A stretch of DNA of 25,664 nt from a virus, in the IMG/VR virus record IMGVR_UViG_3300020445_000062, positions 1 to 25,664 of that record, one strand, 5' to 3'. The notes under the pieces were generated by a model, which did not search any database, was not told where the DNA came from, and saw nothing but the letters and a program-made list of their open reading frames with translations. Positions 2,466 through 8,417 of the stretch are shown piece after piece. The translations under genes were made by a program, and so were the position numbers. Numbering within the stretch: position 1 is the stretch's first letter; each line of letters begins with the position of its first letter.

Positions 2466-3638
2466 TTGAGTTGTTTCAGAAGTAGCCCACGGATATTCTC
2501 TTAAATGGCATTCCAACGAATGACCCATTGCATTAGCCATACTGCCTGAGTCAATCCCTAAGCGATGACCTCTAACGCTGTAAGAGTGACGAAAACTATA
2601 AGTTCCTAATTCTTCCTTTCTTGCTTTTACTTTTGCTTTTAATGATGTCCAAGCTTTGCGCCTTTCTAAATATTTCCTGATTTGCTCAGCGACCCCGTTA
2701 CCCTCTGCGGATAATTTAGGCAATTCTAATAATCCAGCCTCTAATAAAGATATTAATTTCCAATTAGTGCCTTCTATTGGTAAAGGTTCTAATCTTCTAG
2801 GTTTTGTGATACCACCGCCTGACCTCTTTTCATAAGAACACCATAAATATTTTTCACCTTTTGGCGTTTGTCTTACATGAAGATGGGTCAATTCAACAGG
2901 TCGAAGGCCGTAAACGGTTAAGAGCTTAAGAGCATTCCCCCATCTACTTCCCGCCTCAGTTGTTTGTAAATCTTCTATAAGGGTCAATATTTCCTGATCT
3001 CTTAAAGGTTGTTTTTTTTGGCTTTTTGTATTTGCCGCCTTACGTCCTATTTGTAACTTTCTTTCTTTTGGTGGCATCCATGAAGTTGGAACATCTTCTC
3101 TAAGGACGCAATATTCTAGGAATTGGCATAGTGAATTAGTACGCCGTCTACGTGTTTCCGTTCCTGGAGGCCAATCTTTAATACAAAGTTCTATTAGATC
3201 AGTGGTTGTTGTTGGTGGATCTTTACTTTCTAAAAGCTTTACAGCATCTTTTAAAACTTTCTTATAATCTTTTTTCCAGGTTTTCTCAACAATTGCGTTC
3301 TCATGTTTTGTCTTGTATTGCTTAAAGTTTTCTAAACACGCCGTCCAATCCCGCTCAATTTTAGGGGCCTTGCCTTCTGCGATGAGAGCGGCTGTTTTTA
3401 AATTATGCCCCTCTAAAGTTAAGTTATAAATATTGCTTATACGGGTTGTGGCTGCCTTTCTTAAATTCTCAGCCCATGCAAAGGGCAAAATGATTTGTTG
3501 GTCTTTTTGATTTGGAACGTTACGCCATCTCAAACGCATTTTCTCCCTGTCTTCCGCAACGCTCCACCCATGCCCTAAACTTCTTACATCTTCTTTTAGG
3601 GTTTCTTCCCATCTAGCTTTTCTTTTTTTCTTTGGCAT
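2430..3638 (-). CDS. int: Tyrosine-family site-specific integrase
   Basis: 402 residues, a usual length for a phage integrase with an arm-binding N-terminus, a core-binding SAM-like domain (about 95-185) and a C-terminal catalytic domain. Catalytic residues visible: Arg246 in LLTVYGLRPVEL, a lysine near 271 in the CSYEKR beta-turn, Arg350 in TYSFRHSYS, His372 in AMGHS and the nucleophile Tyr382 in LREYPWA. Box II reads Y-S-F-R, with Tyr347 where H-x-x-R enzymes have His, a known variation among distant members. The gene lies beside attP (tRNA-Pro half at 3739-3779), so integration into host tRNA-Pro is expected. GCGGCCTA arm repeats begin 8 bp upstream of the ATG, which could give autoregulation. 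Confidence 0.92.
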   Translation of the reverse strand: MPKKKRKARWEETLKEDVRSLGHGWSVAEDREKMRLRWRNVPNQKDQQIILPFAWAENLRKAATTRISNIYNLTLEGHNLKTAALIAEGKAPKIERDWTACLENFKQYKTKHENAIVEKTWKKDYKKVLKDAVKLLESKDPPTTTTDLIELCIKDWPPGTETRRRRTNSLCQFLEYCVLREDVPTSWMPPKERKLQIGRKAANTKSQKKQPLRDQEILTLIEDLQTTEAGSRWGNALKLLTVYGLRPVELTHLHVRQTPKGEKYLWCSYEKRSGGGITKPRRLEPLPIEGTNWKLISLLEAGLLELPKLSAEGNGVAEQIRKYLERRKAWTSLKAKVKARKEELGTYSFRHSYSVRGHRLGIDSGSMANAMGHSLECHLREYPWATSETTQSAFERVRSSIV

Positions 3639-3865: not shown

Positions 3866-4783
3866 TTATTTTTGCTTTAGTCCTTGTCTTCTTTTATGCA
3901 TCTTTTGGCGCATTCTCTTTAAGCAAAGTTTCTCAACTTGCCGCACTCTTTCCCTGGATATATCCATAATTTCCCCGATCTCGCTATAAGTCATCGGCTG
4001 CTTTCCTTCTCCAGTAATTCCAATTCCATAACGTAACTCCATAATTTTTAAATCACGATGAGGAAGAATTGATAAAAGGTCTTCCAGCTGCTCTAACCCA
4101 TTTTGAATTTCTAGCTCTTCCTCTGGAGAAAAATCTTCAGAAGCAAGGACATCTAATATTGTTTTTTCTTGAGTACTTTCTGACCCTCCATAATGACTAG
4201 TTAAACGATCTAAACTAATAGGCCTGCTTGAATGATTTAAATAATGCTTAAGCGTTGGGAGCGTTACCCGTGAAACTTCTGCTATTTCTTCCAGCGTTGG
4301 ATTCTTGCCATGAGTGTGTTTATATTCATCAATAAAAATTGCTGCGCGTTTTTGAACATCCTGAGCGCAAACAGGTAAACGAATAGTTCTTTCTAAATTA
4401 CCTATTGATCGATGGATACCTTGCTTAATCCACCAATAGGCATAAGTGGAAAACTTATAACCACGGCCAGGATCAAATTTTTCAACACCTCTATTCAATC
4501 CAATGCAACCCTCTTGAATTAAATCTAATAGGGTCATATGGGTCATAGTTTGCTTTAAATGTTTTTTGGCAATATGACAAACCAAACGCAAATTAGCTTT
4601 AATCATGCGCTCTTTTGCTTTCTTACCACGCCTAATAACTCTTAACTGATCACGATTTGGGTTTTCTATTGGCAATAAGGATTGCCATGCTTGTACTTGA
4701 TTTCCAAGCTCTATTTCTTCAGCAGGCGACAACATAGGAATACGTGCCGCCTCCTTTAGAAAAAAGCCTACGCCGTCCTCCAT
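3866..4783 (-). CDS. Phage-encoded group 2 sigma-70 family factor
   Basis: 305 residues, the size of cyanobacterial group 2/3 sigma factors. Region 1.2 (about 3-34, FFLKEAARIPMLSPAEEIELG); region 2 (about 60-127) with NLRLV, LLDLIQEGCIGL, EKFDPGRGYKFSTYAYWWIKQ, the full set for core binding, -10 recognition and melting; region 3 with GKNPTLEEIAE; region 4 (about 225-297) ending in MTYSEIGEIMDISRERVRQVEKL, an intact -35 binding HTH. Region 1.1 is absent, as in alternative sigmas. It should bind host core RNA polymerase and redirect it, perhaps to late phage genes. It is the last gene of the early minus operon, abutting the SSB-like gene with no gap. T4-like cyanophages carry a different, short sigma (gp55). 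Confidence 0.92.
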   Translation of the reverse strand: MEDGVGFFLKEAARIPMLSPAEEIELGNQVQAWQSLLPIENPNRDQLRVIRRGKKAKERMIKANLRLVCHIAKKHLKQTMTHMTLLDLIQEGCIGLNRGVEKFDPGRGYKFSTYAYWWIKQGIHRSIGNLERTIRLPVCAQDVQKRAAIFIDEYKHTHGKNPTLEEIAEVSRVTLPTLKHYLNHSSRPISLDRLTSHYGGSESTQEKTILDVLASEDFSPEEELEIQNGLEQLEDLLSILPHRDLKIMELRYGIGITGEGKQPMTYSEIGEIMDISRERVRQVEKLCLKRMRQKMHKRRQGLKQK

Positions 4784-6285: not shown

Positions 6286-7020
6286 TTACCTAGCTAAAGC
6301 AAGTAATTTTTTGTTTTCCCTTGTCAGCATTGAGATGTCTACAGGTTCCTCGTCTGATTTATTTGCTAGAAGTGATAAGCCCCGATAACAAGGACATTCG
6401 CCTTCCCCCAAATCTAGACACCAAACAACCTCATCGGCTGTTAGATCATGCTCTCCTCTAAGAATATCCTTACAGACAGCTTGATAGGTCTTATTTTGCG
6501 GCCAGTCTTTTGTTTTTGCTAATTCATCCCAGGTCTTTTTAGGTGATAACAAACGTTCATGAGCAATTTTATTAAATGTACGCTCTAAGGAATGACCATA
6601 TTTGGAACAGATCTCATCAGTTAATTCTCCAACCTTTAAATACTCTTCCCTTATAGGTTGCTCACCAACAAACATAGTGAATATATCCCCAGCAGTTGCA
6701 ACGTTGCCATCATGTGTGAGAAAGGGTTTTGCCTGTTGGAAACGTTTTCTTGTTACTTCTTTAGTAATGAATTTAAAACCGTTAGGACCTTCTTCTTGAA
6801 TATCTTTCATTAATTGGCGTAACCCTATATAAAAAGCAGATTTAGCATCTAATAAACCTCTTTCTAAATACGCACATTGACTATTAAAGATATTTACTTT
6901 TCTGCATTGGCCGTAGTGATGAATATCTTGCTGGCTTAATCCGTTAGCTTCACGCCAAAACTTAAAACCTTTTCCAAGTTCTATTGCAAATTCTGATACT
7001 GGTTCGTTATGAGCAGCCAT
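6286..7020 (-). CDS. XRE-like HTH protein, candidate lysogeny repressor
   Basis: 244 residues. The N-terminal 60 form an XRE/Cro-type HTH: LGKGFKFWREANGLSQQDIHHY, then a longer turn and FNSQCAYLERGLLDAK, where S-Q and Y-L-E-R-G match the usual positions. The remainder has no S24 peptidase Ser/Lys pair that I can find, so it would not self-cleave as lambda CI does; induction must work another way. The C-terminal part (about 160-244) may be an oligomerisation or effector domain. A very strong ribosome site (GGGAGG) precedes the ATG. The gene is divergent from the replication operon and is bracketed by TAGCGG(A/T)GT copies, consistent with autoregulation. The repressor role is inferred from fold and place. 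Confidence 0.65.
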   Translation of the reverse strand: MAAHNEPVSEFAIELGKGFKFWREANGLSQQDIHHYGQCRKVNIFNSQCAYLERGLLDAKSAFYIGLRQLMKDIQEEGPNGFKFITKEVTRKRFQQAKPFLTHDGNVATAGDIFTMFVGEQPIREEYLKVGELTDEICSKYGHSLERTFNKIAHERLLSPKKTWDELAKTKDWPQNKTYQAVCKDILRGEHDLTADEVVWCLDLGEGECPCYRGLSLLANKSDEEPVDISMLTRENKKLLALAR

Positions 7021-7050
7021 AACCTCCCGTTAAATGGTATGAGCTGAATA

Positions 7051-7104
7051 TAGCGGAGTTTACTCTGATTGGAATAGCAGAAGAGTACTCAAAGAGTATT
7101 CCTA
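7051..7104 (-). promoter_or_regulatory. Operator-like sites upstream of the repressor gene
   Basis: TAGCGGAGT at 7051-7059 repeats the elements at 6225 and 6269. Next to it, the palindrome GAGTACTC (7085-7092) lies inside a nearly concentric inverted repeat GGAATA (7071-7076)/TATTCC (7099-7104). All are within 85 bp of the repressor ATG, so both autoregulation and control of an upstream promoter are plausible. Confidence 0.45.
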
Positions 7105-7129
7105 GACACCCTAGATATTCTATTGTGAG

Positions 7130-7291
7130 TTAATACTTATTAGGCTGATACTGGTTTAATTGCTTTCTTAAGCGTTGATTTTCTGTGAGGACCTCAGACA
7201 ATAATTCAAAAGGATCGCTGCAATAACTTAGTTCTTTGCGTAAATCAAGATAATTAGATTTACTGTTTTTTGCCTCGGTGGTCGGGGTCAT
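7130..7291 (-). CDS. Possible small protein upstream of the repressor
   Basis: A short reading frame starts at ATG 7291 (MTPTTEAKNSKSNYLDLRKE...) and contains a helical ELLSEVLTENQRLRKQL segment resembling a short leucine-zipper-like coiled coil. I read about 53 codons; the exact stop near 7130 is my least certain coordinate because it depends on a few bases. Codon use and the amphipathic helix look real, and it would be the first gene in front of the repressor. No family recognised. Confidence 0.4.
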   Translation of the reverse strand: MTPTTEAKNSKSNYLDLRKELSYCSDPFELLSEVLTENQRLRKQLNQYQPNKY

Positions 7292-7312
7292 AAGGCCTCG
7301 CTCTTTGGGTCA
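7285..7312 (+). repeat. Paired GGGTCAT repeats, 22 bp apart
   Basis: GGGTCAT at 7285-7291 and 7307-7313, embedded in a 12-bp near-repeat, two helical turns apart; another GGGTCA is at 7472-7477 and the complementary GACCCA at 7441-7446 and 7451-7456. Likely part of the same protein-binding cluster as the phased CCCA boxes. Confidence 0.4.
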
Positions 7313-7366
7313 TACGGTTATGTTAACAAATAATAAGAGTTTGGCAATATTGCTATTTGAGTGGGC

Positions 7367-7395
7367 TTGACAGCCTTACCCACGGTGGGCATTAT
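7367..7395 (+). promoter_or_regulatory. Promoter of the replication operon with embedded operator
   Basis: Perfect -35 TTGACA (7367-7372), 17-bp spacer and -10 CATTAT (7390-7395). The spacer ends in the inverted repeat CCCAC-G-GTGGG (7379-7389), directly against the -10 box, where a bound repressor would block polymerase. Transcription would start near 7402, which excludes the TTG at 7357 as a start codon and points to ATG 7429 for the first gene. Confidence 0.65.
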
Positions 7396-7456
7396 GCGGG
7401 CGTAGCACTACCCATAGCGCACCCATCTATGCCCAAAGAAGACCCAGCTAGACCCA
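7379..7456 (+). repeat. Helically phased CCCA boxes (iteron-like)
   Basis: CCCA occurs at 7379, 7411, 7422, 7432, 7443 and 7453. The last five are spaced 11, 10, 11, 10 bp, i.e. 10.5 bp, the helical repeat of B-DNA, and the first is about three turns upstream. The boxes fall in different codon phases (CCC-A and xxC-CCA alternate), so protein coding does not explain them. They straddle the start of a replication-protein-like gene, recalling origin iterons inside lambda O, or a phased activator/repressor array. Confidence 0.55.
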
Positions 7457-8088
7457 CTGATGACAGATTAAGGGTCAAGATTGAGCCATCAATTTACAAA
7501 AAAATCAGTAATCAAATGCCCGAACATCAGAAGGGCAGGCCGCTTTCATTTATTGTCAATGATCTACTCTATGCCTACTTCAAAAAAGAGGTTGACAGTA
7601 GCAATAAAATAAGCGGACACCCTGGCCGCTTTTCATATTCTAATTCTTCTAATTCTTTTGAAGAGAGTGTGAGAGAAACTTTTCTTAAGCCTCCTGTGGA
7701 TGTAGATCATTTGGATAAAGCTTTAATGCATCCGATTGATGTCATGAAATGGCAGGATGAGCAAGGAATGAAAGCTAAGAACGAATCACCCGCTTTTTTA
7801 CAGTTTTGGGATGTATATCAAACCGCTCCAAATAAGGCCAGCAACCAATCTAAGAAAAAAGCCGTTCTTGCTTGGAAAGAAGCTTTAAAGAAACAAAAAC
7901 CTCACTTACTCATAGAAGCCGCTAGGAGAGCCGTTGAAGATCAGGTAAGCAAAACTGCCAAGGATGAATGGTCTGCGCCCTTTCCAGACGCTTACAGATG
8001 GCTTAGAGATGAATGTTTCACTGTTCATTTAGAGGCACATATTACGGCTGAGCAACCTAAAGTAATTCCTGGTCAGACTGTCCTATGA
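7429..8088 (+). CDS. Replication-associated protein, O-like
   Basis: 219 residues from ATG 7429; the frame is open to TTG 7357, but the promoter at 7367-7395 lies within that extension. N-terminal part: DRLRVKIEPSIYKKI then GRPLSFIVNDLLYAYF, a ribbon-helix-helix-like DNA-binding pattern. C-terminal part: FLQFWDVYQTAPNKASNQSKKKAVLAWKEALKK... FPDAYRWLRDE, the F/W-x-x-Y-P-x-K...A...W...L...P-x-x-WL-x-x-E signature common at the C-terminus of phage replication initiators and helicase-loading proteins. It probably binds the phased repeats at its own 5' end and recruits the host replisome; no polymerase or helicase gene is present in the window. First gene of the plus operon, 4-bp overlap with the next. 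Confidence 0.6.
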   Translation: MPKEDPARPTDDRLRVKIEPSIYKKISNQMPEHQKGRPLSFIVNDLLYAYFKKEVDSSNKISGHPGRFSYSNSSNSFEESVRETFLKPPVDVDHLDKALMHPIDVMKWQDEQGMKAKNESPAFLQFWDVYQTAPNKASNQSKKKAVLAWKEALKKQKPHLLIEAARRAVEDQVSKTAKDEWSAPFPDAYRWLRDECFTVHLEAHITAEQPKVIPGQTVL

Positions 8089-8417
8089 AACTTTACGCAC
8101 CTGATCTAGCTAATAGCTACGTGTGGCCAATGGTTGCCAAAAATGCAAGAGCTGGGGAGCAGACCACTTTCCAACTAACCAGCGACCCAACCCCAAAAAT
8201 GTGGGAAGAAAGAGGCTATGTACTAGCAGGCCCTTGTCAATCTGGGATGTATGACGAATCTGGATTTTATTGCACTTTTAGGCCTGGAGTTGATGGCAAA
8301 TTCCCAGGTAAGTACTACCGAGTCCTACAGGATAAATACGCCGACAAGGTAAAACAGGATTACGAAAAAGAAAAAATCGAGCGTAGGTATCCCGCAAGGA
8401 ATGGAGCGATTATATGA
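8085..8417 (+). CDS. Hypothetical protein in replication operon
   Basis: 110 residues, with a GDE-poor but aromatic-rich core (MWEERGYVLAGPCQSGMYDESGFYCTF) and a charged helical C-terminus (DKYADKVKQDYEKEKIERRY). No membrane segment, zinc motif or known family. The ATG overlaps the replication gene stop (ATGA), and its own stop overlaps the next start by 4 bp, so it is translated as part of the operon. Confidence 0.65.
   Translation: MKLYAPDLANSYVWPMVAKNARAGEQTTFQLTSDPTPKMWEERGYVLAGPCQSGMYDESGFYCTFRPGVDGKFPGKYYRVLQDKYADKVKQDYEKEKIERRYPARNGAII

Follow-up and report, generated by a model that had tools for sequence, protein, structure and literature searches.

A run of five CCCA boxes spaced 11, 10, 11 and 10 bp apart, one per turn of the DNA, crosses the start of rep, the gene of a 219-aa putative replication initiation protein (Rep; 7429-8088, plus strand), in a window which comprises the complete 25,664-base IMG/VR record IMGVR_UViG_3300020445_000062. 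Judged from its sequence, this array is real, specific to the window, operator-like and probably functional, and it is more likely a set of sites for Rep itself than a conserved origin of replication. Of wider significance and greater interest than the array itself is the exchange of leader and N-terminal domain: phages whose flanking sequences are nearly identical swap, as one unit, the segment from the -35 hexamer of the rep promoter to the linker of Rep, and the whole array falls within the part of the window corresponding to this cassette.

The virus is probably a temperate, cyanophage-like marine siphovirus. Its genes include those of an integrase, a sigma-70 factor, a Sak-like annealing protein, an exonuclease and a RusA-like resolvase, and the sigma and Sak-like proteins showed their greatest similarity to proteins of Synechococcus and Prochlorococcus siphoviruses. 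The phage-encoded sigma-70 factor (3866-4783, minus strand) contained regions 1.2, 2, 3 and 4 and resembled the factors of S-CBS1, S-CBS3 and KBS-S-2A. The leftward genes stop at 7291 and the rightward genes start with rep at 7429; GC skew, considered as evidence of an origin, changes sign near 7.3 kb, but it was discarded as the coding strand switches there too. Divergent from rep lies a conserved 53-aa gene (7130-7291, minus strand) that is kept in relatives; this neighbour of the repressor gene also turned up close to the Sak-like gene in contigs from another group of cyanophages.

Eight relatives (L120, L121, L123, L124, L125, L126, L127 and L129) were available for comparison, two contigs found via the neighbouring gene o110 and six more by alignment of the Rep proteins of these two. 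They share the order repressor, small gene, rep, o110 and exo, parts of which are hidden in some by contig ends or divergence, and three types can be distinguished among the N-termini of Rep, A1 (window and L121), A2 (L123-L125) and B (L120, L126, L127 and L129). Rep used as a single-protein query revealed no relatives in phage records, viral contigs or genomes, nor did a three-sequence alignment in a genome scan; a viral scan with the A1 N-terminus matched only L121, the repressor as query found no relatives, integrase and o110 had no matches in phage records, and a DNA search with positions 7000-8100 returned chance matches only. Relatives of the Sak-like protein were tried as a comparison set and rejected, the gene being homologous but the replication module different. 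Matches in two frames to the L126 repressor (2841-3592) and the L127 integrase (1-1000) suggest frameshifts or assembly errors in these contigs.

Six CCCA boxes, all on the plus strand, were confirmed at 7379, 7411, 7422, 7432, 7443 and 7453, with exactly the spacings given in the first-pass annotation. The box at 7379-7382, absent from the relatives, is the left arm of an inverted repeat, CCCAC-G-GTGGG (7379-7389), found in the -35/-10 spacer of the window only. The run itself consists of box 1 (7411-7414, -18 from the ATG), box 2 (7422-7425, -7), box 3 (7432-7435, +3, Pro codon 2 of rep), box 4 (7443-7446, +14) and box 5 (7453-7456, +24), of which boxes 2, 4 and 5 occur in the window only. 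Box 1 recurs at its position in a single relative, L121, and box 3 reads CCCA also in L121 and CCCT or CCAT in L123-L125. Relatives lacking the 10.5-bp spacing had been named beforehand as a finding that would count against a combined replication origin and operator, and this was largely what was found: none of the eight carries the array. Between -75 and +45 of the start codon the window contains six CCCA motifs, L121 two, L125 one and the remaining relatives none, and in the rep start region of the relatives no 4-mer formed a phased run longer than three. In L121, which has the closest Rep N-terminus, the two boxes stand in the register of the window (-18 and +3), 21 bp apart, the latter being the conserved Pro codon. 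That eight relatives keep promoter and gene and not the array shows that a conspicuous phased array in a single genome can be something other than a conserved origin.

The exchange of the surrounding segment was evident from the way in which sequence identity follows the type of the Rep N-terminus. Leader identity averaged 0.79 among phages of one N-terminal type and 0.50 across types (p = 2e-4, permutation), and the promoter spacer followed type more weakly (p = 0.001), these tests being limited by the small sample of nine sequences, some of them closely related. Under the same limits, no tracking of N-terminal type was detected for the upstream region (p = 0.11), the linker (p = 0.61) or the next 500 bp (p = 0.50). 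Pairwise comparisons located the borders: L125 and L127 are 100% identical from -150 to -90, about 40-60% identical from -60 to +150 and 97-100% identical from +180 to +270; L123 and L129 share about 55% across leader and N-terminus and about 95% beyond; and L125 matches L120 fully from -120 to -60, drops to about 50% right at the -35 hexamer and regains its similarity at about +150 to +180, within the linker. Physical linkage alone, between two crossover points, could make leader and N-terminus co-vary. The array lies wholly inside the exchanged segment and so is, most likely, an operator for the N-terminus of Rep itself.

The left edge of the cassette is the rep promoter, TTGACA-17-CATTAT (7367-7395, plus strand), which had been called perfect; its -35 hexamer indeed scores 6/6, but the -10 hexamer only 4/6. 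TTGACA is invariant in all nine sequences and the -10 region is largely kept in all eight relatives, which makes an operator acting on this promoter plausible. A CGTA near the presumed transcription start (7401-7404, plus strand) is likewise invariant (9/9), and the GTGGGC touching the -35 hexamer (7361-7366, plus strand) is mostly replaced by TACGTC, TACGTA or AACGTA in the relatives. In A2-type leaders we observed an 11-bp palindrome, CCGTA-G-TACGG (L124 2903-2917, L125 843-853), with a 5+1+5 layout like that of CCCAC-G-GTGGG. The GGGTCA motifs at 7285 and 7307, earlier taken for half-sites continuing the array, proved to coincide with the start codon and the 5' leader of the gene at 7130-7291 on the minus strand. 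They belong to a conserved leader and promoter region of that divergent gene (7285-7345) common to the relatives whatever their Rep type, and GGTCA/GGGT at its start is kept in most relatives although these have no CCCA boxes. An Rfam search gave nothing beyond a weak MicX match far under the cut-off.

Rep matched phrog_270 (E = 1.2e-4) and the primosomal family phrog_9327 (E = 4.6e-3), the phrog_270 match spanning residues 92-198, the C-terminal part only. Its conserved C-terminal domain (residues 123-202; 7795-8034, plus strand) is common to the Rep-like protein of MED4-184/P-HS2. The exchangeable N-terminal domain (7429-7620, plus strand) shows a strand-helix-helix-like pattern with a putative fold. 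Pfam gave no match to the N-terminus of the window Rep; the best match in the Rep family was to the VapB antitoxin (E = 0.011), under the cut-off and in type B only. AlphaFold predicted helices at residues 20-29 and 39-60 and no strand (pLDDT 66), Foldseek returned no match, and solved-structure and fold searches gave nothing significant. A ribbon-helix-helix fold is therefore a lead and not a finding. The front half of Rep is probably DNA-binding, and its A1 strand-like segment RLRVKIEP, rich in R/K, would suit a G/C-rich site.

The reading we favour, to which we give a little less than an even chance, is that the array serves the N-terminal domain of the Rep encoded directly downstream as an operator specific to this lineage. 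Rep produced from P_rep would bind, through this domain, the CCCA boxes, which line one side of the helix between about +10 of the transcript and codon 9-10, and the CCCAC-G-GTGGG in the promoter spacer along with them; cooperative occupancy would block promoter and leader and so limit Rep, and may also concentrate Rep close to a site at 7624-7690 where the DNA would open within the gene. Leader and N-terminal domain would move together between phages, with the -35 hexamer and the linker as limits. While the array, the conservation of the promoter, the cassette exchange and the linker constraint are observed, Rep as the binder, the repression and any role in replication are what we infer from them. 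Box positions are shared (-18 and +3) with no relative but L121, which has the one other A1 N-terminus, and this argues for Rep as the binder; against it, this closest N-terminal relative keeps only two boxes, one of them a codon, and no DNA-binding family match to the Rep N-terminus was found with Pfam or Foldseek.

About 170 bp downstream of the array, constraint at the DNA level was detected within rep that is absent at the array itself. In this linker block (7624-7690, plus strand; 28% GC over 7630-7690) synonymous sites are conserved: codon identity at conserved residues between the window and the eight relatives was 0.91, as opposed to 0.61 for the gene (p = 3e-4), and the highest contiguous codon-identity windows fall in the linker region. 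It carries a tandem 9-bp repeat, TTCTAATTC x2 (7638-7655, plus strand), and no iterons were found beside this AT-rich block. The block is a better candidate for an in-gene origin than the array, though recombination could also explain its conservation. That the block is kept as a recombination junction and not as an origin, an explanation that concerns the linker alone and does not compete with the models of the array, is a serious possibility, if somewhat short of an even chance: the N-terminal exchange ends exactly at the block, and long tracts of near-identity occur in the linker between otherwise diverged genes, but the conservation also holds when the window is set against each of the eight relatives, none of them close to it overall. 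A broader model, which we consider more probably wrong than right, is that initiator specificity is swapped as a cassette of ~230-250 bp, made up of spacer, leader with cognate sites and N-terminal DNA-binding domain, with the -35 hexamer and the linker, the latter serving as in-gene origin, as its fixed ends; the CCCA array would then be one set of cognate sites, in which the specificity of its N-terminal type can be read. If so, uncultured marine phages would hold a small natural set of matched DNA-binding domains and sites, and could change replication specificity in a single recombination step.

It is unlikely that the conserved Pro codon at 7432, other Pro codons and a few noncoding matches merely chanced into phase, even though the motif is short, the array is confined to the window, box 3 is coding and L121 retains only two positions. 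Five boxes at 10/11 bp arose in 0 of 200 dinucleotide shuffles for CCCA and in 1 of 200 for any 4-mer, and five boxes of any 4-mer at any period of 5-26 in 0 of 60, tests that are post hoc in that the pattern was picked because it is conspicuous. With the same reservation, no run of five copies of any mixed 4-mer at 10/11 bp occurred in 999,511 bases (1.0 Mb) of fetched, mostly related phage loci, where all five runs at this spacing were of homopolymeric 4-mers, and no further run at any period of 5-31 was seen elsewhere in the window. A search of 2.9 million viral contigs found the identical five-box pattern in 14 records, mostly as simple tandem or coding repeats, and none of the 14 encodes a Rep resembling that of the window. 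The earlier statement that coding cannot explain the boxes was supported for the three in-gene boxes taken together (p = 6e-4, synonymous resampling of codons 2-12, likewise post hoc) and failed for the box at 7432, since the codon following the start is Pro in every A-type N-terminus (window, L121 and L123-L125).

Binding of the array by the phage repressor, which would silence rep in lysogeny, appears improbable. The gene at 6286-7020 (minus strand) encodes a putative XRE-type repressor (LSQQDI...NSQ..YLERG), its HTH recognized by motif only and a family search giving no match; syntenic homologues exist in the relatives, where the divergent repressor/rep layout is kept, and the array overlaps P_rep. 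However, the L126 repressor is ~50% identical and has a near-identical putative recognition segment (LYNSQVAYFERG versus IFNSQCAYLERG), yet L126, whose Rep N-terminus differs, lacks CCCA boxes, which makes the repressor an unlikely binder of the array. A better candidate operator is the palindrome GCAATATTGC at 7344-7353, matched at the same relative position upstream of the rep -35 hexamer by a perfect 18-bp palindrome in L126 (3899-3916, ATAGCAAATATTTGCTAT).

Quite unlikely, too, is a combined replication origin and operator in which the phased boxes act as iterons at which Rep binds and opens the DNA: the array does span the start of an initiator-like gene, and three of the 14 five-box records have the pattern in Rep-like linkers (L113, L117 and L119), so that phased repeats do occur in initiator genes, but it is missing from all eight relatives, has 54% GC with no adjoining AT-rich tract and consists of boxes of 4-5 bp, too short for iterons (18-19 bp), and the DNA-level constraint lies elsewhere, in the linker. 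Of this proposal, made in the first-pass annotation, an operator covering promoter and start of rep remains plausible, while the origin part is unsupported. In the three putative replication-protein linkers the phased CCCA arrays are protein repeats, namely SPNDLPS (L113 2482-2527, plus strand), NPTVTQE (L117 3959-4025, plus strand) and NPTETQN (L119 9620-9665, minus strand).

The origin of lambda lies inside the O gene, where the N-terminal half of O binds iterons that come with an AT-rich tract (PMC4488673, PMC3349717), four near-perfect 18-19-bp iterons standing by the AT-rich tract in mid-O (PMC4488673, PMC3349717, PMC7466680). The likeness drawn earlier between the array and lambda O fits the linker block at 7624-7690 better: rep, too, would have an origin-like cis element within an initiator gene, with an exchangeable N-terminal half and a conserved AT-rich mid-gene block, and a candidate cis constraint is present there and not at the array. 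Unlike in lambda, the repeats are 4-bp boxes at the start of the gene with unrelated spacers, and no iterons were found by the AT-rich block. The Prochlorococcus phage MED4-184/P-HS2 protein CPAG_00031 has a C-terminal domain homologous to that of Rep (32% over 81 aa), but its N-terminus is HTH_36/DnaD_N-like and its repeats and AT-rich units are in the linker. That linker (MED4-184, L025 14674-14780) contains direct repeats of 16-18 nt, in two pairs, and after them tandem AT-rich units of 15 nt, and is a candidate for an unannotated lambda-like origin. As to operators of the lambda oR kind, with palindromes tracking repressor type, the palindrome at 7344-7353 corresponds to that of L126 and the CCCA boxes do not.

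The array is not established as an origin; it is operator-like and probably functional. Initiators of iteron plasmids are autoregulated, with binding sites over their own promoter, and rep resembles them as an initiator gene with candidate sites over its own promoter; its boxes are far shorter, direct repeats at 10.5-bp spacing, and their binding is putative. In the ribbon-helix-helix operator arrays of Arc and MetJ, short direct repeats are read by a small N-terminal domain. Although such a fold of Rep is unconfirmed by Pfam, AlphaFold and Foldseek, the array shares with these systems several copies of a short direct repeat regularly spaced over the target promoter, and Rep shares the predicted helices at residues 20-29 and 39-60.
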